A stretch of 53,441 nt of DNA, from positions 1 to 53,441 of IMG/VR virus record IMGVR_UViG_3300027872_000008; one strand, written 5' to 3'. A program made the translations under genes and the position numbers. Under the pieces are notes generated by a model that was not told where the DNA came from, did not search any database, and saw only the letters and a list, made by a program, of their open reading frames with translations. Source of the stretch: a virus. Below are positions 2,153-53,040 of the stretch, piece by piece. Position 1 is the stretch's first letter, and each line of letters opens with the position of its first letter.

Positions 2153-3010
2153 CTAGTGGTAGAGGCCGAGAAGGACGCCGCTGATGTCACAGAAGTCGAG
2201 CACCGAGCCAGCCGGATCTCGCGTCGAGACACTGAGCTTCAGCCAGTTCTCACCGATGTGTTCGGTGGTGGGGATCTCTACGCTGACCTCCGTCCCGTTC
2301 CCGAGGAACGTCGCGTCTATCGTCGGCTGGTCCAGCTCGTAGAAGAAGGCCAGGCCATCTCCCTGCGGATCTAACGCGGGGAACGGCTCCCCGAGCGGAG
2401 CCCGGTTCCGAGCTGGTCGCACGAACTGGGCTTTGAGTTCACCGAAGTCCCCGGTCTGCTTGACCCGAATCCTGATGGAACTCCACTGCACGATGGGGAC
2501 GAACGCCTCTACTCCGTCCATACCGAAGGAGAGTGACGCGCCTCCAAAGCCCGTGCCCATAGTGTCCGAGACGAGGATGCTGTTGCCCGCGCTCCCCCGT
2601 GCGATGGCGAACACCAACATGGTGATGCCCGAACCGCTAGGGTTGATCTCGGCGGTGACGGTCGGGTGGAGCGTCATCGCCGCCGCGTAATCCGTGCCCG
2701 GCGTCCCTGTCAGGGTGAGCGCGGCTAGGACGTTGTCGTGTGTGAGTTCACGGGTCGCGGCGATCTGGATGTTGCCATCGACGTTGGTGAGGACCGTCTG
2801 CAACGTCCAAGTCTTCTCGTTAGGGCCGCCGTCGTCGATGGTGAACGTCTCGCCGTTGAGCGCGTTCGGATTCACGGAGAGCCCCGTGCTGGCCTGGCGG
2901 GTTGGCGTGTCCCAGAAGTCGAACCCCGTGCCCTGGCGGCCCCTGAAGGGGCTCCGTGCGACTCGCGCATCCGGCGACGGGATAACCAGCCGCGTTGGTT
3001 TCTCAGCCAT
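2153..3010 (-). CDS. Virion protein with shared beta domain, 285 aa, left haplotype
   Basis: Three parts are visible. Residues 1-25 (MAEKPTRLVIPSPDARVARSPF) are a conserved head. Residues about 50-145 form a domain built on NGETFTIDDG, TWTLQTVLTNVDGNIQIAAT and DNVLAALTLTGTPGTDYAAA. Residues about 165-285 are a C-terminal domain running from FVPIVQWSSIRIRV to EHIGENWLKLSV and ILDFCDISGVLLGLYH-like residues. Head and C-terminal domain recur in the next gene (3023-3829), which is a paralogue; the middle domain recurs also in the nozzle-like protein. Likely a decoration or fibre-base protein. Starts with ATG after a short gap from its neighbour. Confidence 0.65.
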   Translation of the reverse strand: MAEKPTRLVIPSPDARVARSPFRGRQGTGFDFWDTPTRQASTGLSVNPNALNGETFTIDDGGPNEKTWTLQTVLTNVDGNIQIAATRELTHDNVLAALTLTGTPGTDYAAAMTLHPTVTAEINPSGSGITMLVFAIARGSAGNSILVSDTMGTGFGGASLSFGMDGVEAFVPIVQWSSIRIRVKQTGDFGELKAQFVRPARNRAPLGEPFPALDPQGDGLAFFYELDQPTIDATFLGNGTEVSVEIPTTEHIGENWLKLSVSTRDPAGSVLDFCDISGVLLGLYH

Positions 3011-6065: not shown

Positions 6066-6352
6066 CGATGGCTGATCGCCTGGTTCGCCCAGAACATCGC
6101 CTCGGCGCAGTGCATGACCGCGTGATCCTTCTGGTCGCCCTCGGGGACGTGGTCCTCAATCGCCATGGCCAGGAGCCGGGCTCGCTCGCGGATCGTCTCT
6201 AGGGAGGCCCGCTGCCGGGTGCCGTTCTTGACCACGACCGGGCTGAAGAACTTCTCTATCGCCTGGATCCGCAGCCGCCTCGAAGCGGCCTGGTGGGGGG
6301 GTGCCTCTTCCTCCTGATCGGACATCGTCTCTTCGATTGCTGTGTCTCTCAT
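6062..6352 (-). CDS. Putative Acb2-like cyclic-nucleotide sponge, 96 aa
   Basis: The last 40 residues (IRERARLLAMAIEDHVPEGD, then AVMHCAEAMFWANQAISHR) resemble the helical-hairpin signature of the Acb2/Tad1 hairpin domain family as I remember it, with a conserved EAMFWAN-AI ending. Members of that family bind cyclic oligonucleotides and block CBASS (Acb2) defence. The N-terminal 35 residues are charged and probably flexible. The ATG at 6352 follows GAGGA by about 6 nt and the stop is coupled to terL (ATGA). By position alone it could be mistaken for a small terminase, but it has no evident DNA-binding domain. Assignment rests on motif memory, not on a search. Confidence 0.55.
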   Translation of the reverse strand: MRDTAIEETMSDQEEEAPPHQAASRRLRIQAIEKFFSPVVVKNGTRQRASLETIRERARLLAMAIEDHVPEGDQKDHAVMHCAEAMFWANQAISHR

Positions 6353-6359
6353 GGGTTCC

Positions 6360-6998
6360 TCAGTTGGCTACGACTAGAACGATGACGACCGCCACGACGG
6401 CGGCTCGCCCCTGTCTCCAGATCTGTGTGAGTGCTCCGGGGGATGCGGCCCGCTCCCAGGCGGCCGACTCCTGCATGGAGAGGGTCAGGGCCGTGTTGAG
6501 CCTGGTGATCTCGGTGGAGGCGGCCGTGCGCTCGCTGATGAGCTGCATCCCGAGGGTGCGCTCCCGCTGCTGGCCCGCGAAGATCTCAGCCGCACTCGTG
6601 GCCCGGAAGACGTCGTTGGCCGTCCGCTCCTCCTCCAGCTCCGTGGTGACCCGCTCCAGGGCAGCCTGGACGATGGGGAGGTCCGCTGCCGCGTTCCTGG
6701 CCGCCGCGAGGGCCTCGTCCGTCCCGGTCACGGCCTCCTCGACCGCCCCCTCCGCTTCCGTGATGATGGAGTCGGTGACCTCTTCGTTCCGATCCTGGAG
6801 GGCGATCAGGCTGTCACTCGTGGCCTTGACCAGCTCGTGGGCATCGGTGGCCACCTCGACGCTGTCGAGTGCGACTTCGAGCTGGTCAGCCAAGAGCCTG
6901 GCCTCCGCGCTGGCTGTAAAGTAACTGCGGCCTACGACAGCCAGGATGGCGAGGACCACGAGCTGGAAAGCCCACTGCGGGCCAGACGACGGAAGCAC
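6360..6998 (-). CDS. Coiled-coil membrane protein, possible spanin, 212 aa
   Basis: An N-terminal hydrophobic helix (residues about 10-24, AFQLVVLAILAVVG), a long Ala/Glu/Thr-rich helical region (28-185) with heptad character, and a second hydrophobic stretch at the extreme C-terminus (AAVVAVVIVLVV, about 199-210). Two membrane ends with a long periplasmic coil between them are what a one-protein spanin would look like, but classical u-spanins are lipoproteins and no lipobox is present. It directly follows the 101-aa two-helix protein with no gap, so the pair probably works together. Confidence 0.55.
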   Translation of the reverse strand: MLPSSGPQWAFQLVVLAILAVVGRSYFTASAEARLLADQLEVALDSVEVATDAHELVKATSDSLIALQDRNEEVTDSIITEAEGAVEEAVTGTDEALAAARNAAADLPIVQAALERVTTELEEERTANDVFRATSAAEIFAGQQRERTLGMQLISERTAASTEITRLNTALTLSMQESAAWERAASPGALTQIWRQGRAAVVAVVIVLVVAN

Positions 6999-7304
6999 CT
7001 AGTCCTTGCCGCCCCGGCCCAGGAGACCTTTGGCGATGTCACCGGCCTCCTTGACGTTGATGAAGCCGAAGCCGATCAGGGCCATCACGAACCCCAGGAT
7101 CGTCATCCAGATGTACCCGGTCACGAGGCCGGTGTAGGCGGCGATCACCGTGCCGACCGCACCCAGGACGATGCCCCCCTTGGTCTGGTTCCGGGCTCGC
7201 TTGGCCCGCTCCTCCCGCTTGGCGATCTCCTGCTGGACCTGTTCCTCGGTCAGCTCGTGAGGGCCGTTGTTGCGACTGTCTGTCGGCGGCATGGAGGGTG
7301 TCAT
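6999..7304 (-). CDS. Two-helix membrane protein, holin-like candidate, 101 aa
   Basis: A charged N-terminal helix (residues 17-40, EEQVQQEIAKREERAKRARN) precedes two hydrophobic segments (about 43-62 and 65-83) and a short basic tail ending GLLGRGGKD. Size and two membrane helices fit a class II holin, but many phage membrane proteins share this form. The stop codon abuts the next gene. A second, more convincing lysis cassette lies at 26010-27178, so this may be a different membrane function. Confidence 0.5.
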   Translation of the reverse strand: MTPSMPPTDSRNNGPHELTEEQVQQEIAKREERAKRARNQTKGGIVLGAVGTVIAAYTGLVTGYIWMTILGFVMALIGFGFINVKEAGDIAKGLLGRGGKD

Positions 7305-7521: not shown

Positions 7522-7711
7522 GGCTAACCTCCTGTGCGAGAATCGGGCCGTGACGGCAACGACAAAACCGATACGGATCAGGGGGCCCGTACCACGAGGG
7601 GGGCACCCCCTTCAAGCGCAGCTCCTGGGAGCCACGGCCCTCAAAGAAACGGACGCCAGGAAGGTTTGCAAGACACGGCTCTCTCAAACCGTGGAGGAGC
7701 CGGTCGAAAGG
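7522..7711 (-). other. Intergenic stretch with weak hairpins
   Basis: About 190 bp between the Tat-leader gene and the basic peptide. It contains a G/C hairpin near 7597-7613 (GGGGG-gca-CCCCC type) and a 5-bp CACGG/CCGTG inverted repeat near 7672-7690. Neither is followed by a clear T-run on the minus strand. No ORF with convincing composition was found here. Confidence 0.4.
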
Positions 7712-10367: not shown

Positions 10368-10811
10368 ATGACTCGCTTCGCTTCCCCGGTCACCAGCTTC
10401 GGAGCCGCCGGTCGGCACCTCGGCTCTCGTGACTCACGGCCCATCGGGCACAACACCTCAGTCGAGCGACTGAGCGAGACCCGCATCGCGATCCGCTTCC
10501 ACTCGACCAACGTGATCACCTTCCACATGGACGGCCGGATCACCTTCGACACCGGGGGCTGGTGGAGCGTCACCACCAAGGTGCGCCTCAACAGCCTGAG
10601 CCCCTGCCAGATCTGGAGCGAGGGCGACGGTGACTGGGCGATCCAAGGCCCCACGGGCGACGGGGCCAGGTTCGAGGACGGGATCACCATGGGCGCTGAC
10701 GGGACCTTCCAGAACTGGAAGGAAGCGCGGGCGCTCCTGCGGGCCTCGCGGGCTCGCCGGTTCGCCATCAAGGACGCTGAACTGGCCGCGATGACCGGCG
10801 ACTCAGCGTGA
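10368..10811 (+). CDS. Conserved phage protein of unknown function, 147 aa
   Basis: ATG at 10368 with AAAGGA about 9 nt upstream, first gene behind promoter P1. The core (residues about 32-75: HNTSVERLSETRIAIRFHST, VITFHMDGRITFDTGGWWSV, TKVRLN) is a beta-rich pattern I recall from many actinophage-type genomes as an unnamed family. The C-terminal part is a basic helix (EARALLRASRARRF). Function unknown. Confidence 0.65.
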   Translation: MTRFASPVTSFGAAGRHLGSRDSRPIGHNTSVERLSETRIAIRFHSTNVITFHMDGRITFDTGGWWSVTTKVRLNSLSPCQIWSEGDGDWAIQGPTGDGARFEDGITMGADGTFQNWKEARALLRASRARRFAIKDAELAAMTGDSA

Positions 10812-10823
10812 CCACCACCACCA

Positions 10824-10865
10824 CCTGGACGGGTGCTCCGGCGGGGTTCGACTCCCCGCCCCAGG
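10824..10865 (+). other. tRNA T-arm mimic E1
   Basis: Structure by direct pairing: CCTGG (10824-10828), an 11-nt linker, stem GGCGGGG, 7-nt loop TTCGACT, stem CCCCGCC, then CCAGG (10861-10865) pairing with the first CCTGG. Stem lengths add to 12 bp, as in a tRNA acceptor plus T-arm, and the loop obeys the T-loop rule TTCRANY closed by G-C. It begins 12 nt after a stop codon and lies upstream of the CTCTCTCGAAAGGA leader of the next gene. Confidence 0.7.
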
Positions 10866-10897
10866 CCTTGCCTCACCTCTCTCTCGAAAGGACGACC

Positions 10898-11167
10898 ATG
10901 AACAACCCGACCCTCCTCGTGAAGCTCCCGGCCCGCCCGGTCTTCGGAGCCCCTGACCCGCTCTTCGGAGCCCGCCTCTCGAAGTACAACCGCCGCCGGG
11001 AGCTGGCCCGCAAGCGAGCCCTCTTCGCTGACACCAAGGCCAACCGGAAGGCCTACGGAGTCCCCAGCGCCAACTTCCGGTTCACCCCGCTGGCCTCGAC
11101 CGCCACCGACCTCCCGCCCTGGCTGGCCGCCTGGCCCGCCGCGATCACCGACTCGGTGTCCAAATGA
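10898..11167 (+). CDS. Unrecognised basic protein, 89 aa
   Basis: Begins MNNPTLLVKLPARPVFGAPD and has a strongly basic helix (residues about 28-52, LSKYNRRRELARKRALFADT and NRKAYG). ATG follows CTCTCTCGAAAGGACGACC. It may bind nucleic acid. No family recognised. ATGA overlap with the next gene. Confidence 0.6.
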   Translation: MNNPTLLVKLPARPVFGAPDPLFGARLSKYNRRRELARKRALFADTKANRKAYGVPSANFRFTPLASTATDLPPWLAAWPAAITDSVSK

Positions 11168-11376
11168 GGCGGCTCGCCCTCGTCGCCCTGGTGGCCCTCG
11201 CGGGCTGCCAGGTGGACATCCGGCTCGACGTCTCGCTGGCCCCACGGGCCACCGCCGAGGCCTGCGCCTGGACCACGGTCAACCACTCCGGGATCACCGA
11301 GTGCCACGTCGCCGGGCCCTACCTCAGGGCAGCGGACGTGATGACCGCCGACACCAGCTCCCACCTGGAGCTGTAG
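11164..11376 (+). CDS. Small lipoprotein, 70 aa
   Basis: Signal peptide MRRLALVALVALAGC ends in a lipobox (L-A-G-C) with Cys15 as the lipidation site. The mature part of 56 residues contains two further Cys and beta-like segments (QVDIRLDVSLAPRA). Early-expressed phage lipoproteins often act in superinfection exclusion by blocking receptors or DNA entry; here that is inference from form and expression class. Coupled to the upstream gene by ATGA. Confidence 0.7.
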   Translation: MRRLALVALVALAGCQVDIRLDVSLAPRATAEACAWTTVNHSGITECHVAGPYLRAADVMTADTSSHLEL

Positions 11377-11384
11377 ACCGATGA

Positions 11385-11424
11385 CCTGGAGCGGAACGCT
11401 GGCCGGTTCGAGCCCGGCCCCAGG
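11385..11424 (+). other. tRNA T-arm mimic E2
   Basis: CCTGG (11385-11389), 11-nt linker AGCGGAACGCT, stem GGCCGG, loop TTCGAGC, stem CCGGCC, CCAGG (11420-11424). It has the same plan as E1 with different stem bases, so pairing is kept by compensating changes. It begins 9 nt after the lipoprotein stop and ends 22 nt before the ATG of the first PP-loop gene. Confidence 0.7.
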
Positions 11425-11446
11425 CTTCACCACCAAGGAGACGCAC

Positions 11447-12307
11447 ATGAGAGACCTGAACGTGCCCACCGAGATCACCGCCGCGATGGACGGCGGGGCC
11501 GCCCTGGCGGTGTCGATCTCCGGCGGCAAGGACTCCCAGGCCATGGCTCTGGCGCTCGTCGCCTGGGCCAAGCGGGAAGGCTACTGGGGCGTCAACGAGA
11601 TCTTCGCGGTCCACGCTGACCTGGGCCAGATGGAGTGGCAAGGCGAGTACGCCACCGAGCCCGTGGTGGTCGCCCAGGCGGCCGACCTGGGGCTGGAGCT
11701 GCACGTCGTCACGAGGACTGACGGCCGCGACCTCCTGGACCGGATCAAGGACCGCCGGGCCACCATGACCGAGAAGGGCCAGGACGGCCCCTTCTGGCCC
11801 AGCTCCTCGACCCGCTACTGCACCAGCGACCTGAAGCGCGACCCGATCAACAAGCTGCTGCGGACCTGGACCCACGTCATCAGCGCGGAGGGGATCCGGG
11901 CCGCCGAGTCCACGGCCAGGGCCAAGAAGCCCTGCTGGGCTCCCCGCAAGCGGATCCTCTCGAAGACCCGCGAGGCCCACACCTGGCACCCGATCCTGGA
12001 CTGGTCCGAGGACGATGTCTGGACCGCCATCGGGGGCCGCGACGGCCACCTGGTCCACCCGGCCTACGGCCTGGGGAACGAACGCCTCTCCTGCGCCATG
12101 TGCGTCTTCGGCTGCGACGGCGACCTGGTCAACGGAGCCCGGAACAACCCAGCCCTCTTCGAGGAGCTGCTCGACCTGGAGCGCGACAGCGGCTGGCGGT
12201 TCACCGTCAAGCGGAGCCTCGAAGAGGTGAAGCTCTGCCTCGACGGCGAAGCGCCCCTGGTCAACGGCCGGATCCAACTGCCGGTCCTCAACTCACAAGG
12301 AGCCTGA
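11447..12307 (+). CDS. PP-loop ATPase, PAPS reductase/DndC-like, 286 aa
   Basis: An ATP pyrophosphatase of the adenine-nucleotide alpha-hydrolase fold: SISGGKDSQAM (PP-loop SGGKDS at residues 25-30), a VHADLGQMEW strand, a long central insertion with SSTRYCTSDLKRDP, and a C-terminal Cys cluster CAMCVFGC (about 217-224) that could hold zinc or Fe-S. Relatives activate a substrate by adenylation before adding sulfur or nitrogen, as in PAPS reductase and DndC. I chose the ATG at 11447 after AAGGAG; an in-frame upstream start at 11381 would translate through T-arm E2. It leads the modification island with the TGT-like gene that follows. Confidence 0.75.
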   Translation: MRDLNVPTEITAAMDGGAALAVSISGGKDSQAMALALVAWAKREGYWGVNEIFAVHADLGQMEWQGEYATEPVVVAQAADLGLELHVVTRTDGRDLLDRIKDRRATMTEKGQDGPFWPSSSTRYCTSDLKRDPINKLLRTWTHVISAEGIRAAESTARAKKPCWAPRKRILSKTREAHTWHPILDWSEDDVWTAIGGRDGHLVHPAYGLGNERLSCAMCVFGCDGDLVNGARNNPALFEELLDLERDSGWRFTVKRSLEEVKLCLDGEAPLVNGRIQLPVLNSQGA

Positions 12308-12309
12308 AC

Positions 12310-12969
12310 ATGATCTACCTGCTGGGCGACATGACCAACGGCACGGCCAAGCTGGCCGACACCTACCCGAGGGGGATCGGGCGCTGCTACGTGGACTCGC
12401 GCCTGGACCCCTTCCCGGAGGAGCCCTGGATCCTCGACAACGGGGTGTTCCGGGCCTGGAACCGCAACGGCCGCGACCCGGCCACCGACTACGCCGCCGA
12501 GTACGCCTTCTTCGAGGCGAAGCTCGCGGAGGTGGCCGACCGGGCCGACGAGGGACGCGGTCCTCTCTTCGTAGTCGCGGCCGACAGGCCAGGCGACCCG
12601 GCGAGCCTGGACGTGACGCTGGCCTGGCTGGACGACTGGCAGGAGCTGCTCGACGGCCAGGCGATCCCGATCTACGCCGCCGTGCAGGACGGGATGACCC
12701 CTGACACGGTCGAGGCCTCCGGGCTCCTGGAGCGGGTCTCCGGGCTCTTCCTCGGGGGCTCCGACGAGTTCAAGCTCACCGCCGCTGCCTGGCGGGAGCT
12801 GACCACCGACCACGGCCTCGGCTTCCACTGGGGACGCTGCACTCAGAGCGTGATCGCGACAGCGGTCGCCCTGGGCTGCGACAGCGCCGACAGCTCCCAC
12901 CCCTGCCGCCTGGCCGGGGCCAGGTGGGCCAGGTTCCTCGAAGTCTTCGACACCGAGATGGTGGCCTAG
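12310..12969 (+). CDS. TGT/DpdA-like base-exchange enzyme candidate, 219 aa
   Basis: Motifs in order fit the TIM-barrel of tRNA-guanine transglycosylase relatives such as phage DpdA: WILDNGVF (residues 40-47, where TGTs have D-S-G-G-F), VVAADRPGD (88-96), PIYAAVQDGM (120-129), GLFLGG (145-150), GFHWGR (171-176) and LGCDSADSS (188-196). DpdA proteins insert 7-deazaguanine bases into DNA. No preQ0 synthesis genes (folE, queD, queE) are visible, so a precursor would have to come from the host. It starts 2 nt after the PP-loop gene. A different sugar- or base-binding TIM-barrel enzyme remains possible. Confidence 0.6.
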   Translation: MIYLLGDMTNGTAKLADTYPRGIGRCYVDSRLDPFPEEPWILDNGVFRAWNRNGRDPATDYAAEYAFFEAKLAEVADRADEGRGPLFVVAADRPGDPASLDVTLAWLDDWQELLDGQAIPIYAAVQDGMTPDTVEASGLLERVSGLFLGGSDEFKLTAAAWRELTTDHGLGFHWGRCTQSVIATAVALGCDSADSSHPCRLAGARWARFLEVFDTEMVA

Positions 12970-12981
12970 ATGACGTCAGCA

Positions 12982-13010
12982 TTGACCCGACACGACGTCG
13001 GGTGTAACGT
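12982..13010 (+). promoter_or_regulatory. Promoter P2 with operator palindrome
   Basis: TTGACC (12982-12987), 17-nt spacer, TAACGT (13005-13010). The segment overlapping the -35 end and the spacer is an inverted repeat, CCCGAC-acgac-GTCGGG, placed so that a bound dimer would block RNA polymerase. Behind it comes the leader CTCTCTCTCTCGAAAGGA and the ATG at 13048. Confidence 0.75.
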
Positions 13011-13047
13011 GATAGCAGGACCCTCTCTCTCTCGAAAGGACGCCAAC

Positions 13048-13320
13048 ATGAGCATCGCAACCTTCTTCCCCCACGCAGACCACCCCGACCGCCAGCCCGC
13101 CGTGTGGCTGAACATCGGTGAGCCCTCCGACGAGGAGCCGATGACCTTCGACTCGACCGACGAGGCCTACGACTACGTGACCAGGAACGTCGAGACCAAC
13201 CTCGCCAGCGTCCGCGCCCTCTTCGCTGAGAAGCGCGACCTGGACCGCCGGATCGCCGCCCTGGAGGCCGACACCGCACTCCTGCGGAAGGCCGCCCGCC
13301 AGATCCTTCCCCACCTCTAG
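13048..13320 (+). CDS. Unrecognised protein with coiled-coil tail, 90 aa
   Basis: First gene behind P2. Begins MSIATFFPHADHPDRQPAVW; residues about 30-50 carry TFDSTDEAYDYVTRNVE, and residues 50-85 form a likely coiled coil (RALFAEKRDLDRRIAALEAD, LLRKAARQIL). Ends HL. No family recognised. Confidence 0.6.
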   Translation: MSIATFFPHADHPDRQPAVWLNIGEPSDEEPMTFDSTDEAYDYVTRNVETNLASVRALFAEKRDLDRRIAALEADTALLRKAARQILPHL

Positions 13321-13331
13321 GACGATGACCA

Positions 13332-13372
13332 CCGGGACCGGCAGCCAGGCGGGTTCGAGGCCCGCCGCCCGG
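13332..13372 (+). other. tRNA T-arm mimic E3
   Basis: CCGGG (13332-13336), 11-nt linker ACCGGCAGCCA, stem GGCGGG, loop TTCGAGG, stem CCCGCC, one G, then CCCGG (13368-13372). The outer stem has changed from CCTGG/CCAGG in E1 and E2 to CCGGG/CCCGG with pairing preserved. The loop deviates at its last position (G instead of Y). E3 shares GACGATGACC before it with E2 and GGCCTTGCCTCA after it with E1. Confidence 0.65.
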
Positions 13373-13399
13373 CCTTGCCTCAGTTCAACGGAGACCACC

Positions 13400-13552
13400 A
13401 TGGACCCGACCTACAGCATCATCCGGTTCAGCATGGACGCGCCCCAGGAGGTGATCAAGGAGGGCCTGACGCTCGAAGAGGCCCAGGAGCACTGCAACCG
13501 GGACGACACGCACGGCCCAGGCTGGTTCGACGGCTACCGGGAGGAAGTGTGA
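13400..13552 (+). CDS. Small conserved phage protein, 50 aa
   Basis: A 50-residue protein, MDPTYSIIRFSMDAPQEVIK onward, ending GPGWFDGYREEV. The pattern I-R-F...LTLEEAQEHC-x-D-T-x-G-x-GWFDGY is one I recall from many phages of GC-rich bacteria, without a known function. It is too short for simple ORF scans. GTG of the next gene overlaps its last two codons. Confidence 0.7.
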   Translation: MDPTYSIIRFSMDAPQEVIKEGLTLEEAQEHCNRDDTHGPGWFDGYREEV

Positions 13553-14418
13553 ACTCGACCACCTTCGGACTCCTCGGAGCTGGGGCCCCGTTCAGTGTGG
13601 CCTACGGGATGGGGGTGGACTCCACCGCCATGCTCGTGGGCCTGGCCGAGCGGGGGATCCGGCCCGACGCGATCCTCTTCGCTGACGTTGGCGGGGAGAA
13701 GCCGGAGACCTACGCCTACCAGGCCAAGATGGACGCCTGGCTGCGCTCTGTAGGCTTCCCGGAGATCACAGTGGTCCGCTACCCTGGGCCGAAGAGCGGA
13801 GCCTACGACACGCTCGAAGGGAACTGCATCTCGAACGGGACGCTGCCCTCGCTGGCCTTCGGCTTCAAGAGCTGCTCGCTCAAGTGGAAGGTCGAGCCCC
13901 AGAAGAAGTGGGAGCGGGCCTGGCAGCCTGCCCAGGACGCCTGGGCCAAGGGCCTGCCCATCATCAAGGCCATCGGCTTCGACGCCTCTCCGAAGGACTC
14001 GAAGCGGTGCAGCTACGCGGCCGACAAGGTCGATGACGATCCGAAGTACCACTACTGGTATCCGCTCCGCGACTGGGGCTGGACACGCGAGGAGTGCATG
14101 GCCCAGATCGAAGCGGCCGGGCTCCCGGTGCCGATGAAGAGCGCCTGCTTCTTCTGCCCTGCATCGCAGGTCGAGGAGATCGCCTGGCTGGCCGACAAAC
14201 ACCCGGAGCTGGCCGACCGGATCATCACCATGGAGAACAACGCCAGGCCCAGGCTGAAGAAGATCAAAGGGCTCTGGCGCAACGGGGTGAAGGGCACACG
14301 AGGTGGGATCCCGAAGCCGGGCCGGATGGCCGACTTCATCCACCGCTACCGGGGCACGGCCGAGAGGACCTGGCCGATCCAGCTCCCGGTGATTCAACCG
14401 ACCAAGGAGGCAGCATGA
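13549..14418 (+). CDS. Second PP-loop ATPase, phage PAPS-reductase-like, 289 aa
   Basis: GTG start overlapping the upstream stop (GTGTGA). The P-loop variant is YGMGVDSTAM (residues 19-28), followed by ILFADVGGEKPETYAY and a C-terminal SACFFCPAS (about 197-205) with a likely metal-binding Cys pair. This is the phage branch of the adenine nucleotide alpha-hydrolase superfamily, often labelled PAPS reductase-like, but sulfate reduction is improbable as its real task. Two different PP-loop enzymes flanking a TGT-like protein suggest a nucleotide or nucleic-acid modification route. ATGA overlap with the methyltransferase. Confidence 0.7.
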   Translation: MNSTTFGLLGAGAPFSVAYGMGVDSTAMLVGLAERGIRPDAILFADVGGEKPETYAYQAKMDAWLRSVGFPEITVVRYPGPKSGAYDTLEGNCISNGTLPSLAFGFKSCSLKWKVEPQKKWERAWQPAQDAWAKGLPIIKAIGFDASPKDSKRCSYAADKVDDDPKYHYWYPLRDWGWTREECMAQIEAAGLPVPMKSACFFCPASQVEEIAWLADKHPELADRIITMENNARPRLKKIKGLWRNGVKGTRGGIPKPGRMADFIHRYRGTAERTWPIQLPVIQPTKEAA

Positions 14419-15314
14419 CCAGAGCCGTTGACCTCTTCGCTGGCTGGGGTGGGTTCACCCTGGGAGCGGAGCAGGCCGGAGTCGATGTCGTCTGGGCCGC
14501 GAACCACTGGCCCATGGCGGTGGAGGCCCACGCGCTGAACCACCCCGACACGATCCACGCCTGCCAGGATCTGACCCAGGCCGACTGGACCAAGCTCCCC
14601 GACTACGAGCTGCTGCTCGCGAGCCCGGCCTGCCCTGGCCACTCGACGGCGAGCCAGCCGAGACGCCGGGCCTACCACGACGAGTCACGGGCCACCGCCT
14701 GGGCGGTCGTGGACTGCGCCGAGGTGACCTACCCGGAGACCCTGATCGTGGAGAACGTGCCCGCCTTCCAACGCTGGCAGCTCTACCCGATCTGGAAGAG
14801 CGCACTGCGCCAGCTAGGCTACGAACTCGAAGAGCACGTCCTCCGGGCCAGCCACTACGGGGTGCCGCAGCGACGGGATCGGCTCTTCATCCTGGGCTCG
14901 CGGGTGGGGGCTCACATCACCCCCCGGAAGCCCTCGCAGGAGCCCGCCTTCGGGCCCTGCATCGACTGGGACGCCGGGGACTGGCGTCCACGCACCGACG
15001 CGGGCAAGGGCGCTCAGAAGCGAATGGCTGACGGCCACGCCCGGCACGGGGATCGGTTCCTCAGTCAGCACACGACGGGCCACCGAGGCATCAGCCTGGA
15101 CGAGCCCATCAGGACCATCACGGCCCAGGACCACTGGCTCGCGGTGGACGGCGATCTCTACCGCCCGCTCACGATCCGAGAGACGGCTCGCGGGATGGGC
15201 TTCCCCGAGACCTACGCCTGGCCCGAGGCGGCCACGCGGACGGACTCCATCATCGGCCTGGGCAACGCAGTCTGCCCGCCCCTGGTCGCGGACCTAATCA
15301 AGGAGGCAGCATGA
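14415..15314 (+). CDS. DNA C5-cytosine methyltransferase
   Basis: A 299-residue enzyme that transfers methyl groups from S-adenosylmethionine to C5 of cytosine. Motif I is DLFAGWGGFTLG (residues 6-17); motif IV is SPACPGHS (70-77) with nucleophile Cys73; motif VI is LIVENVPAF (about 111-119); motif VIII is SHYGVPQRRDRLFILG; motif IX is RTITAQDHW; motif X is IGLGNAVCPP. Motif IV differs from the usual P-P-C-Q, with Ala before the Cys and Pro after it. No cognate restriction gene is near, so it probably protects phage DNA. The target region between VIII and IX is short, giving no specificity clue. Confidence 0.9.
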   Translation: MTRAVDLFAGWGGFTLGAEQAGVDVVWAANHWPMAVEAHALNHPDTIHACQDLTQADWTKLPDYELLLASPACPGHSTASQPRRRAYHDESRATAWAVVDCAEVTYPETLIVENVPAFQRWQLYPIWKSALRQLGYELEEHVLRASHYGVPQRRDRLFILGSRVGAHITPRKPSQEPAFGPCIDWDAGDWRPRTDAGKGAQKRMADGHARHGDRFLSQHTTGHRGISLDEPIRTITAQDHWLAVDGDLYRPLTIRETARGMGFPETYAWPEAATRTDSIIGLGNAVCPPLVADLIKEAA

Positions 15315-15655
15315 ACAAGACGAGAGCGGTGCTCACCTGGAGGCACCTCGACCCCCACCCCCACCAGGGCCGCCAGCTCCACACCTGGATGGGCGAGTTC
15401 CCAACGGTGACCGAGACGGTCTGGGACCAGGAGCTGGACGACCAGTTCCAGCCCAGCAACTTCGTCTGCCGGATCGAATCCTTCCAGCCGACCGCCAGCC
15501 CGGAGACCGGCGAGGGGTTCTGGTTCCGGCTGGTCAAGCAAGGCCGCAGCGCGAGCGGTCGCAGGTACTCGACACACAAGACGCTGGCCCTCGCCCAGTG
15601 GTACGCCGACCGATGGGCCAGGGGTCGCTTCTACTACCGCCACCAGGAGGCCTGA
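15311..15655 (+). CDS. Unrecognised protein, 114 aa
   Basis: ATGA overlap with the methyltransferase. Begins MNKTRAVLTWRHLDPHPHQG and ends ARGRFYYRHQEA; rich in Arg, His and aromatic residues, with beta-strand-like segments (NFVCRIESFQP, GFWFRLVKQG). It may be a partner of the modification island, but no family was recognised. Confidence 0.6.
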   Translation: MNKTRAVLTWRHLDPHPHQGRQLHTWMGEFPTVTETVWDQELDDQFQPSNFVCRIESFQPTASPETGEGFWFRLVKQGRSASGRRYSTHKTLALAQWYADRWARGRFYYRHQEA

Positions 15656-15713
15656 TGGCCCACGACGTCATGGCGATCCTGTGCAGGCCCCAGCATCCCG
15701 ACGAGGTGGAGGA

Positions 15714-15743
15714 GTGCAACACGGTGCAACACGCTGCAACGCC
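15714..15743 (+). repeat. Three 10-bp iterons upstream of P3
   Basis: Tandem units GTGCAACACG (15714-15723), GTGCAACACG (15724-15733) and CTGCAACGCC (15734-15743). They repeat at one helical turn, end 4 bp before the -35 of P3, and share the core TGCAAC. Arrays like this bind activators or initiator proteins on one face of the DNA. Confidence 0.65.
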
Positions 15744-15747
15744 ACCA

Positions 15748-15776
15748 TTGACGCGACGGGATGACGGGTGTATTAG
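15748..15776 (+). promoter_or_regulatory. Promoter P3
   Basis: TTGACG (15748-15753), 17-nt spacer, TATTAG (15771-15776). The spacer has the direct repeat GACGGG-at-GACGGG and not the palindrome of P2. The leader again ends CTCTCTCTCTCGAAAGGA before a GTG start at 15818. Confidence 0.7.
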
Positions 15777-15817
15777 TTCAGTAGGACGTTTTCTCTCTCT
15801 CTCGAAAGGAGGCCCAG

Positions 15818-16084
15818 GTGGCCGCTCGCTTCTCCCTGATCTACGACGCCCTCGGCCAGCGGGTGACCGCCTGCTGCATGGCGTACTCCAGCTACATGGA
15901 GTTCGACGGCCCAGGCAGCATTGAGATTCTCTGCTGCAAGGCCTGCCACCACCCAGTTCCGATAGGCCAGGGTGACGGCACAGAATTTCGACCAGGCGTC
16001 ACGGCCGACGCCTACTACGAGGAGCACTTCCGCCGCGAGCAGTGGCGGGAGGCGATCTCTCACTCTCTCAAGGAGTCAGCATGA
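15818..16084 (+). CDS. Cys-rich unrecognised protein, 88 aa
   Basis: GTG start with AAAGGAGG upstream. Contains TACCMAYSSY and ILCCKACHHPV, so four or five Cys plus His could bind zinc. Ends HFRREQWREAISHSLKESA. First gene behind P3; ATGA overlap with the DUF932 gene. Confidence 0.6.
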   Translation: MAARFSLIYDALGQRVTACCMAYSSYMEFDGPGSIEILCCKACHHPVPIGQGDGTEFRPGVTADAYYEEHFRREQWREAISHSLKESA

Positions 16085-16974
16085 AAGGCATGATGCTTCA
16101 CTGTGGAGCGGCACTCGCGACACGCGAGGAAGTCTTCGCCGCCGCCACACCCGACGAGACCGAGACCCACTTCCCGGTCCCCCACGGCGCTCTGATCGAA
16201 GTGATCGAACGCCACGTCCAGGCCTCTGGCTTCCACATCGCCAGCGAGGAGTACGGGCTCTGGAAGGACAGCAACCGGATGTTCGGAGTCTGGGGCCTGC
16301 AGAACGGCTCCCAGGTCGAGCACGAGGACTTCCAGCTAGTGATGGGGGTCCGCAACTCTCACGACAAAGCGTTCAGCGCCGGGATGGCGGTGGGCAGCCG
16401 AGTCTTCGTCTGCGACAACTTGGCCTTCAGCGCCGAGATCGTGATCGCACGGAAGCACACCCGCTTCATCATGCGGGACCTCGACAAGATGGTGGCCGAG
16501 GCCAGCGGCAAGATCGCCGCAGCCCGAGTCAGCCAGGCGCAGCGGATCGCAGCCTACAAGGCGACCGACCTCGAAGACGCCCAGGCCCACGACCTGATCA
16601 TCAGGAGCGTTGACTCCCAGGTCATGGCCAACAGCTACATCGCGAAGGTCCTCCACCAGTGGAGAGACAGCGAGCACGAGGAGTTCGCACCGCGCACCGC
16701 CTGGAGCCTCTTCAACGCCTACACCGAGGTCTTCAAGCAGACCAACCCGCTGGACCTCACGCAGCGGAGCGTCCGACTCCACGGCCTGCTCGACATGGCC
16801 ACGGACGCCTTCGGGGTGGACGCCGCGACTCCTGAGTTCGGAGACGTGACCTTCGGACAGGGACTGCGAGCCCTGGCCGGGATCGAAGAGCTGGAGGCGG
16901 TCGAGGTCGAGGCCGCGCCGGAGCCGGAGCCCCAGGCCCGGCTGCTCAACCCGAGGGTCGGGTTCAACTTCTAA
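16081..16974 (+). CDS. DUF932 phage/plasmid protein, 297 aa
   Basis: The segment VMGVRNSHDKAFSAGMAVGS followed by RVFVCDNLAFSAEI (residues about 91-122) is the hallmark of the DUF932 (phage/plasmid-like, TIGR03299-type) family. A helical C-terminal half ends in a Glu/Pro-rich linker. The biochemical role of the family is unknown; members are common in phages and plasmids. Length is normal. T-arm E4 lies just after its stop. Confidence 0.8.
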   Translation: MKGMMLHCGAALATREEVFAAATPDETETHFPVPHGALIEVIERHVQASGFHIASEEYGLWKDSNRMFGVWGLQNGSQVEHEDFQLVMGVRNSHDKAFSAGMAVGSRVFVCDNLAFSAEIVIARKHTRFIMRDLDKMVAEASGKIAAARVSQAQRIAAYKATDLEDAQAHDLIIRSVDSQVMANSYIAKVLHQWRDSEHEEFAPRTAWSLFNAYTEVFKQTNPLDLTQRSVRLHGLLDMATDAFGVDAATPEFGDVTFGQGLRALAGIEELEAVEVEAAPEPEPQARLLNPRVGFNF

Positions 16975-16982
16975 CACGGTAC

Positions 16983-17014
16983 GCCTGGCCGGGGTTCGAC
17001 TCCCCGGCTGGGCC
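16983..17014 (+). other. tRNA T-arm mimic E4 (reduced outer stem)
   Basis: Stem GCCGGGG (16988-16994), loop TTCGACT, stem CCCCGGC (17002-17008); only 3 bp (GCC/GGC) can form outside after a small internal loop. Same loop as E1. It starts 9 nt after the DUF932 stop and is followed by CCCCTCGAAAGGAGACC and an ATG. Confidence 0.6.
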
Positions 17015-17042
17015 ATGCAGGACCCCTCGAAAGGAGACCAAG

Positions 17043-17222
17043 ATGAGCAAGGCCCAACGCAAGGCCGCCGGAGACCTGATCGGCGCAGCGCAGCAGATGC
17101 TCCAGGCCGTCGTGGATCCCAGCGGGACGGGCACCAGGCCCCCGCTGGGGTGGGACGTGACCAAGCTACGGCAGGCCACGGCGATGGCAGCGAGCGTGTT
17201 CCCCGAACCGGAGGAGGCCTGA
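17043..17222 (+). CDS. Small helical protein, 59 aa
   Basis: ATG at 17043 follows CGAAAGGAGACCAAG. Reads MSKAQRKAAGDLIGAAQQML, a Pro/Gly turn (PSGTGTRPPLGWDV), then KLRQATAMAASVF and an acidic tail to TGA at 17222. Two helices with a turn. Not recognised. Just below common ORF length cut-offs. Confidence 0.65.
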   Translation: MSKAQRKAAGDLIGAAQQMLQAVVDPSGTGTRPPLGWDVTKLRQATAMAASVFPEPEEA

Positions 17223-20351: not shown

Positions 20352-20464
20352 GAGAGTGCCCAGGGGGGCCAACGTGCCGGGGTTCTTGCGATTCACCGGA
20401 CGTTGGAACTTGGGAGGCGCGGACACCCAAAGCGATCCGCTCCGGGTTCAAGTCCCGGCCTCTC
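20352..20464 (+). other. Structured leader E5, cloverleaf-like with a T-arm
   Basis: Four helices can form. GAGAG (20352-20356) pairs with CTCTC (20460-20464). Hairpin A is CCAACGT-g-CCGG with CCGG-ACGTTGG (20369-20406). Hairpin B is TTGGG with CCCAA (20410-20430, 11-nt loop). Hairpin C is CCGGG-TTCAAGT-CCCGG (20442-20458), a perfect T-arm. Order and form recall a tRNA, but the element is about 113 nt and has no usable anticodon loop. It ends 15 nt before the ATG at 20480. It may be a riboregulator, a tRNA-like decoy or a processing signal. Confidence 0.55.
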
Positions 20465-52182: not shown

Positions 52183-53040
52183 CTAGTGGTAGAGGCCGAG
52201 GAGGACGCCGCTGATGTCACAGAAGTCGAGCACGGTGATGGCTGGATCGCGAGTCGAGACACTGAGCTTGAGCCAATTCTCACCGATGTGTTCGGTGGCG
52301 GGGATCTCCACGCTCACCTCGGAACCACCCGTCAGGAACGTGGCGTCTATCGCTGGCTGATCCAGCTCGTAGAAGAAGGCCGTGTCATCGGCCTGTGGAT
52401 CTAACGCGGGGAACGGCTCCCCGAGCGGATTCTTGTTCCGAGCTGGTCGCACGAACTGGGTCCTGATCTCACCGAAGTCGCCCGTGATTCGAGCCCGAAT
52501 CCTCATGCTGCCCCACTGGACGATAGGGACGAACGCCTCTACTCCGTCCATCCCGAAGGAGAGGTTGGAGCCCCCGAAGCCCACGCCCATGGTGTCCGAG
52601 ACGAGGATGCTGTTACCCGCGCTCCCCCGTGCGATGGCGAACACCAACATGGTGATGCCCGAACCGCTAGGGAGTAGCTCTGCGGTAACGGTCGGGTGGA
52701 GCGTCATCGCCGCCGCGTAATCCGTGCCCGGCGTCCCTGTCAGGGTGAGCGCGGCTAGGACGTTGTCGTGCGTGAGTTCACGGGTCGCGGCGATCTGGAT
52801 GTTGCCATCGACGTTGGTGAGGACCGTCTGCAACGTCCACGTCTTCTCGTTAGGCCCGCCGTCGTCAATGGTGAACGTCTCGCCGTTGAGCGCGTTCGGG
52901 TTTACCGTGAGCCCCACGCTGGCCTGCTTGGTCGGCGTGTCCCAGAAGGCAGCGCCCACGCCCTTGCGGCCCCTGAACGGGCTGCGTGCCACACGAGCAT
53001 CGGGCGACGGGATGATGAGCCGCGTTGGTTTCTCAGCCAT
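52183..53040 (-). CDS. Virion protein with shared beta domain, 285 aa, right haplotype
   Basis: Homologue of 2153-3010, equal in length. Head MAEKPTRLIIPSPDARVARS, middle domain almost unchanged, C-terminal domain with more substitutions (GSMRIRARITGDFGEIRTQF). The middle domain is the most conserved part between haplotypes. Confidence 0.65.
   Translation of the reverse strand: MAEKPTRLIIPSPDARVARSPFRGRKGVGAAFWDTPTKQASVGLTVNPNALNGETFTIDDGGPNEKTWTLQTVLTNVDGNIQIAATRELTHDNVLAALTLTGTPGTDYAAAMTLHPTVTAELLPSGSGITMLVFAIARGSAGNSILVSDTMGVGFGGSNLSFGMDGVEAFVPIVQWGSMRIRARITGDFGEIRTQFVRPARNKNPLGEPFPALDPQADDTAFFYELDQPAIDATFLTGGSEVSVEIPATEHIGENWLKLSVSTRDPAITVLDFCDISGVLLGLYH

Follow-up and report, generated by a model that had tools for sequence, protein, structure and literature searches.

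Candidate minimal tRNA mimics in the early-operon gaps of actinophages

Why do the gaps between early genes of a virus repeatedly hold a hairpin capped with the T-loop of transfer RNA (tRNA)? The question is raised by the virus record IMGVR_UViG_3300027872_000008, whose 53,441 bases were analysed in full and are called the window here. An earlier note had described four such hairpins in intergenic gaps of the window, and had read them as T-arm mimics that are under selection for RNA structure and may act between genes. From comparison of their sequences, we consider the hairpins to be probable members of an actinophage RNA family that is widespread and has so far gone undescribed, made up of minimal tRNA mimics without a D-stem or anticodon arm. 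This degree of confidence applies to the whole explanation, the family together with its proposed tRNA-style cutting.

All five tRNA-like elements of the window are located in gaps on the plus strand. The mini-tRNA-like element 1 (10824..10865) has the sequence CCTGG-(ACGGGTGCTCC)-GGCGGGG-TTCGACT-CCCCGCC-CCAGG and is composed of an outer stem (10824-10828/10861-10865), a D-loop-like linker (10829-10839), a T-stem (10840-10846/10854-10860), and a T-loop (10847-10853). Element 2 (11385..11424), CCTGG-(AGCGGAACGCT)-GGCCGG-TTCGAGC-CCGGCC-CCAGG, has its outer stem at 11385-11389/11420-11424, the linker at 11390-11400, the T-stem at 11401-11406/11414-11419, and the T-loop at 11407-11413. Its linker contains the GG and the covarying pair G2-C8 described below. 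Element 3 (13332..13372), CCGGG-(ACCGGCAGCCA)-GGCGGG-TTCGAGG-CCCGCC-G-CCCGG, is formed by an outer stem (13332-13336/13368-13372) with a bulged G at 13367, a linker (13337-13347), a T-stem (13348-13353/13361-13366), and a T-loop (13354-13360). The linker ACCGGCAGCCA, with the pair C2-G8, is identical to one linker of Streptomyces phage Sitrop. The pair between linker positions 2 and 8 is thus kept in copies 2 and 3, but not in copy 1. Variant 4 (16983..17013) is a continuous 12-bp (base pair) acceptor/T stack with two G-U pairs, a T-loop at 16995-17001, and no D-loop linker. It is kept in both related contigs introduced below, where one of the G-U pairs is G-C.

A fifth, larger tRNA-like element (20412..20464) has an acceptor stem (20412-20417/20459-20464), a T-stem (20442-20446/20454-20458), the T-loop TTCAAGT (20447-20453), and an extra arm with the stem GCGGA/TCCGC inside a linker of 24 nucleotides (nt; 20418-20441). 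In the related contig L004, near position 16679, the stem of the extra arm is changed in a compensatory manner to GGCCA/TGGCC, and its 12-nt loop CAYCCAAAGCGA is unchanged. Both copies of this larger form are located just upstream of a start codon. This element, the GG in the linker, and the occurrence of the family in related and unrelated phages go beyond what the earlier note contained.

The four hairpins were confirmed at the positions given for them, and three of the four indeed share an 11-nt linker of constant length and a 5-bp outer stem. The motif GTTCGANNC occurs at 19 sites on both strands of the window and is closed by a stem of at least 5 bp only in these four hairpins, which, together with the matches to the covariance model R1, excludes chance. 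Copy 3, which was outside the training set of R1, is matched with E = 1.4e-7, copy 1 with E = 1.8e-5, and copy 2, itself a training sequence, with E = 2e-8. Copy 4 is matched as a T-arm only (E = 0.03), and the fifth element gives a weak partial match (E = 1). ARAGORN found no tRNA and no transfer-messenger RNA (tmRNA) in the window, and Rfam had no match there at the gathering threshold. The folding energies of copies 1-3 are unremarkable relative to shuffled sequences (z -1.6, -1.7, and -0.4; variant 4, z -4.5), so the evidence comes from comparison rather than from energy.

The consensus element is composed of a 5-7 bp acceptor stem, a 10-12 nt linker with a conserved GG, a 5-7 bp T-stem, and a TTCRANY loop. 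The acceptor and T-stem build a stack of 11-12 bp, usually followed by A-C-(G/T) and often by a second hairpin. In tRNA, G18 and G19 of the D-loop contact U55 and C56 of the T-loop. Judged by its sequence, the element is a tRNA mimic with a linker like the tRNA D-loop. The acceptor and T-arm stack of about 12 bp and the T-loop are those of tRNA, whereas a D-stem and an anticodon arm are absent, the main-class linker having only 10-12 nt. Decoding is excluded by this anatomy, since there is no anticodon.

Selection on RNA structure, as proposed in the earlier note, is borne out by very strong covariation and by compensatory changes in homologs, and the 11-12 bp geometry of acceptor plus T-arm is likewise confirmed, with the loop and elbow residues in place. 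Perfect elements number 56 in 24 loci, compared with one in total over ten shuffles (0.1 per shuffle). In 24 copies of equal length, all 11 pairs form in each copy, two-sided changes occur in 10 of the 11, and the covariation score is 0.855 versus 0.159 after shuffling, pairing having been a detection criterion for this set. Orthologous gaps retrieved by their flanking sequence alone contain a perfect element, with compensatory changes, in 95 of 100 distinct cases, and at least four of the other five gaps had been cut short on extraction. Of 250 copies, 246 pair linker position 2 with position 8 through Watson-Crick or GU bases (C-G 121, A-T 68, G-C 54); these two positions were never part of detection. 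The pair is present in 74 of 77 distinct linkers, compared with 33.7 expected and a maximum of 48 in 5000 shuffles. Its mutual information is 1.43 bits, with 0.36 for the next pair of positions, and the linker consensus is A-N-Y-G-G-C-A-N-A-C-A.

The scan required the T-loop core, and the choice of boundaries gave small bonuses to GG, G1-C72, and A73. In the first set of 55 elements, fetched without a D-loop pattern, 52 have GG within linker positions 2-6, 54 a pyrimidine at N60, 47 an A at N73, and 51 a C at N74. RNase P prefers U-1, G1-C72, and RCCA as flanks. G1-C72 occurs in 49 of the 55 and A73-C74 is common, both partly favoured by the boundary scoring, but position -1 is mostly A and CCA is not encoded. 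Most true actinophage tRNAs encode N73 and C without CCA, like the A73-C74-(G/T) 3' flank of the element.

The element was found well beyond the window. A related viral contig (L004/L009), with a PAPS reductase 78% and a DUF932 protein 89% identical to those of the window, contains five elements, and the partial contig L008 contains two. The new copies in these relatives have the same 11-nt linker. No such element was found in the distant relatives L005-L007, which were identified through PAPS reductase. A pattern search of viral contigs revealed the same architecture in unrelated phages, often with 6 + 6 bp and a linker of 11-12 nt. When the early region was compared with annotated phages by megablast, no match was obtained, but short-query blastn matched unannotated gaps of many actinophages, and the Sitrop query was covered to at least 80% in 138 records, mostly Streptomyces phages. 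Phages with the element infect Streptomyces, Mycobacterium, and Gordonia, and the copies are almost always unannotated. There are nine copies in Sitrop, seven in Lika, nine in Joe, and six in phiHau3 (Streptomyces phages); ten model matches in Cuke and 14 copies in Riparian (Mycobacterium phages); ten each in VanLee and ObLaDi (Gordonia phages); three in Octobien14; and two in Dagobah. The richest genomes contain 7-14 copies each.

A second pattern identified at least 120 viral stretches and ten bacterial ones, and the second and third patterns together placed elements in 124 of 140 listed loci, with at least 328 unique cores. Genes of phage type (for a head protein, a replicative helicase, or replication initiation) are present in most of the bacterial loci tested, and in most of these genomes the copies are concentrated in a single small region. 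None of 295 other Actinomycetota genomes contained the element at E <= 1e-5 under strict filters, and no match was found in the plasmids searched. Phages phiC31, phiBT1, TM4, and Bxb1 have no match to the covariance model, and R4 has a single weak T-arm-like match. Short T-arm-like matches in Mycobacterium phages Silverleaf and Chaser, Rhodococcus phage REQ1, and Streptomyces phage Success were rejected, as the full element is lacking.

Position was mapped for 47 copies at seven loci, either annotated or in the window, and every one of them is sense to both flanking genes. The median distance from the stop codon to the start of the element is 8 nt, and its end is mostly separated from the next start by 22-52 nt. 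In five early operons, the element occupies 38 of the 42 gaps of 70-130 nt and none of the 35 shorter gaps, and at least one of the four exceptional gaps holds a variant tRNA-like fold. A strong hairpin is located downstream of 192 of 315 unique copies, compared with 37 of 315 after shuffling, mostly 1-4 nt past N73.

The minus strand of the window encodes structural proteins such as portal, and the plus strand early and DNA metabolism proteins (exonuclease, RecT, DnaB). Elements 1-4 are located in an early gene block (10368..17222, plus strand) with PAPS reductase-like, weakly TGT-like, C5 DNA methylase, and DUF932 genes. They start 8-12 nt past the upstream stop codon and end 22-32 nt ahead of the next start codon. 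The block has six gaps of more than 60 nt; four hold these elements, and promoter-like TTGAC sequences are present in the other two. At 12995-13045 and 15760-15810, a promoter-like TTGACSCGAC is followed by a CTCTCTCTCGAAAGGA leader with a ribosome-binding site, and the same leader is present after element 1, at 10879. The placement in gaps, sense to the neighboring genes, supports the role between genes that had been proposed. The suggested link to a PP-loop/TGT-like island appears coincidental, because other phages carry the element in nearly every early-operon gap, next to any genes.

What could such elements do in these gaps? We propose that each is transcribed within a polycistronic early messenger RNA (mRNA) and folds as a tRNA-like acceptor/T stack of 11-12 bp, in which the T-loop and the GG of the linker could form a tRNA elbow. 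Host endonucleases that take their measure from the elbow would then cut between genes; these would be RNase P, acting on the 5' side, and RNase Z, acting on the 3' side, or just one of the two. Such cutting, similar to the tRNA punctuation of mitochondrial transcripts, would split one message into single-gene messages. For many copies, the downstream piece would begin 1-4 nt ahead of a stable hairpin, followed by the ribosome-binding site, which may affect mRNA stability or expression. RNase P is known to act on mRNAs of bacterial operons and on an antisense RNA of a phage. In its T-loop, elbow residues, and 11-12 bp, the element agrees with RNase P substrates, in which about 12 bp separate the T-loop from the cut site.

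The T-arm/acceptor stack is read by RNase P and by the CCA-adding and RNase Z machinery (PMC4919913). RNase P uses the 12-bp stack as a ruler, cutting at a set distance from the elbow (PMC4919913, PMC11143913). The RNase P protein touches the leader at positions -8 to -3 (PMC11143913), which matches the median start of the elements, 8 nt past the stop codon. Bacterial mRNA can gain stability from a stem-loop at its 5' end, according to Emory et al. 1992 as cited in PMC3997798. The best model for these features, and one that we regard as likely, is that host RNase P and/or RNase Z use the elements to punctuate polycistronic phage mRNA. We would give about even chances to a general system, in which anticodon-less mini-tRNAs in nearly every actinophage early-operon gap are cut by RNase P and RNase Z to yield separately controlled messages with protected 5' hairpins. 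A cut by RNase Z at the 3' side alone is possible, as is use of the elbow without cutting.

Several features weigh against tRNA-style cutting. At N-1, A is present in 46 of the 55 elements of the first set, whereas T or C predominates at this position in true actinophage tRNAs. Half of the first set and the majority of unique copies have a stack of 11 bp, compared with 12 in tRNA. As CCA is not encoded, the contact between RCCA and RNase P would be incomplete. The bias towards G1 and A73 comes partly from the boundary bonuses and search patterns. Finally, the clade of the window lacks the downstream hairpin, and its N73 is C or T, not A.

The A at -1 and the 11-bp stack, neither ideal for RNase P, would be less surprising if the elbow fold acted in cis without any cut, for example by binding TruB, TrmA, the CCA-adding enzyme, or a phage factor, or by protecting the 3' end of the upstream mRNA in the manner of plant virus tRNA-like structures. 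The universal T-loop residues are read by TruB, TrmA, and CCA-adding enzymes, and the distance of about 8 nt from the stop codon fits a function in the 3' untranslated region. This explanation is nevertheless unlikely: CCA is not encoded, the acceptor has no conserved identity, and no co-conserved phage partner turned up, though no search for one was made.

Hairpin terminators or attenuators without a U-tract, in which the likeness to tRNA would be secondary, are quite improbable. The elements are GC-rich hairpins in gaps, often with a second hairpin downstream, and terminators lacking a U-tract were reportedly described in the early region of phage phiC31 by Ingham et al. in 1995. But phiC31 and phiBT1 are without a match to the model, terminators need no T-loop residues, D-loop GG, or covarying linker pair, and up to nine successive copies in one operon would block the distal genes. 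Downstream of the window copies come C/T-rich leaders or A/C-rich sequence with no T-run, unlike Rho-independent terminators.

The decoy idea of the earlier note, in which the RNAs would act in trans as sponges for tRNA-binding host enzymes or tRNA-directed defence, could draw on the 7-14 copies per genome in early operons and on the tandem arrays in some prophage-like loci. It is weak, and we assign it little probability, as the elements have no anticodon and freely variable acceptor stems. One copy per gap, strict orientation, and the spacing from the stop codon together argue for a role in cis. Repeats acting at the DNA level, as operators, recombination sites, or gene-cassette boundaries, would suit the occurrence of an element every one to three genes within variable early regions, but hardly the single orientation of all 47 copies, the compensated changes of the stems, or the retained asymmetry of loop and linker; they are very improbable. 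Attachment sites and DNA operators were considered and dropped. Least credible are decayed tRNA genes or attachment sites, since, despite a T-arm sequence like that of tRNA and the larger extra-arm forms in the window (20412-20464) and Cuke, the elements show compensatory evolution, a fixed linker, and retention in orthologous gaps, and no full tRNA gene, which would have marked them as debris, occupies these sites in the relatives examined.

Other arrangements were observed alongside one element per gap. A tandem mini-tRNA array is located at 6880-7270 (minus strand) of locus L046, the Amycolatopsis antarctica contig NZ_NKYE01000003.1, directly followed by a gene starting MRIEMIGTAPLLMHNVRL. 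Loci L050, L111, L124, L146, and L165 also contain tandem arrays. The arrays of these six loci have 3-8 elements spaced about 105-145 nt apart and lie in stretches of 5-nt periodic NNGGC repeats. In Cuke (L032), gaps at 7583-7681, 10528-10724, 13975-14095, and 14871-14970 hold forms intermediate between tRNA and mini-tRNA, with extra arms or a TGCGAGT T-loop, and the gap at 6336-6414 has a plain GAAA-loop hairpin at the same place. The annotated tRNA-Arg of Sitrop (MT701598.1 41493-41575) and the tRNA-Val called by ARAGORN in VanLee (L027 4245-4335) overlap mini-tRNA elements, which were probably misread as tRNAs. Elsewhere in the window, one unnamed protein is encoded in two copies on the minus strand (2153-3010 and 52183-53040; 88% identical over 285 amino acids). 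The copies sit near opposite contig ends and would be close together on a circular map; the open reading frames of 436/437 amino acids flanking them may form a second repeated pair.

With covarying examples in the hundreds, this would be, as far as we have found, the first case of a large natural family of minimal tRNA mimics from bacterial viruses. It probably explains some false tRNA annotations in phages, such as those of Sitrop and VanLee. If the elements are cut, they would explain how expression is set gene by gene in long early operons, would represent naturally evolved minimal substrates of RNase P/RNase Z, and could serve as a compact transcript-splitting tool of about 40 nt for actinobacteria. 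Joe, Lika, phiHau3, Cuke, and Riparian, with 6-14 copies each and standard laboratory hosts, are suitable model phages.

The earlier note knew of no such element, and we found no description of it in Rfam 15 or in the literature searched, the coverage of which is incomplete, with most subscription journals outside it. The mascRNA/menRNA elements (RF01684; the 3' elements of MALAT1 and NEAT1) are alike in being a reduced tRNA-like fold within a longer transcript. The ends of mascRNA are made by RNase P and RNase Z. It is the best sub-threshold Rfam match for Sitrop, VanLee, and the relative of the window (23-27 bits), although the best score of 27.0 bits is below the gathering cut-off of 42.5. 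It differs in its small D-arm and anticodon-like arm, single copy, and occurrence in vertebrates. Mitochondrial tRNA punctuation resembles the arrangement proposed here in that tRNA structures between genes release mRNAs, but its marks are real decoding tRNAs, whereas the phage elements have no anticodon arm and are proposed cutting marks. The tRNA-like domain of tmRNA shares an acceptor, a stemless D-loop with GG, and a T-arm. tmRNA has in addition P2, pseudoknots, and a reading frame, while the phage element has about 40 nt and no encoded CCA; ARAGORN detected no tmRNA in the loci scanned. RNase P model substrates of the pATSer type, composed of acceptor and T-arm, have the same minimal stack, but are artificial. 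Natural RNase P sites in mRNA or phage RNA (his operon; Li and Altman 2003; phage P1/P7 C4 RNA) are isolated cases, in contrast to a repeated family in nearly every gap. The SAS/ESAS of Cluster K mycobacteriophages are also gap repeats in front of genes, about half of them with inverted repeats (PMC3203893). They differ in having a conserved 13-bp sequence and 17-bp repeats, the term tRNA-like is absent from PMC3203893, and TM4 is without a match to our model. The element falls within an already known type, the tRNA-like structures, and there is a fair chance that a phage-wide punctuation system built from it deserves a category of its own.

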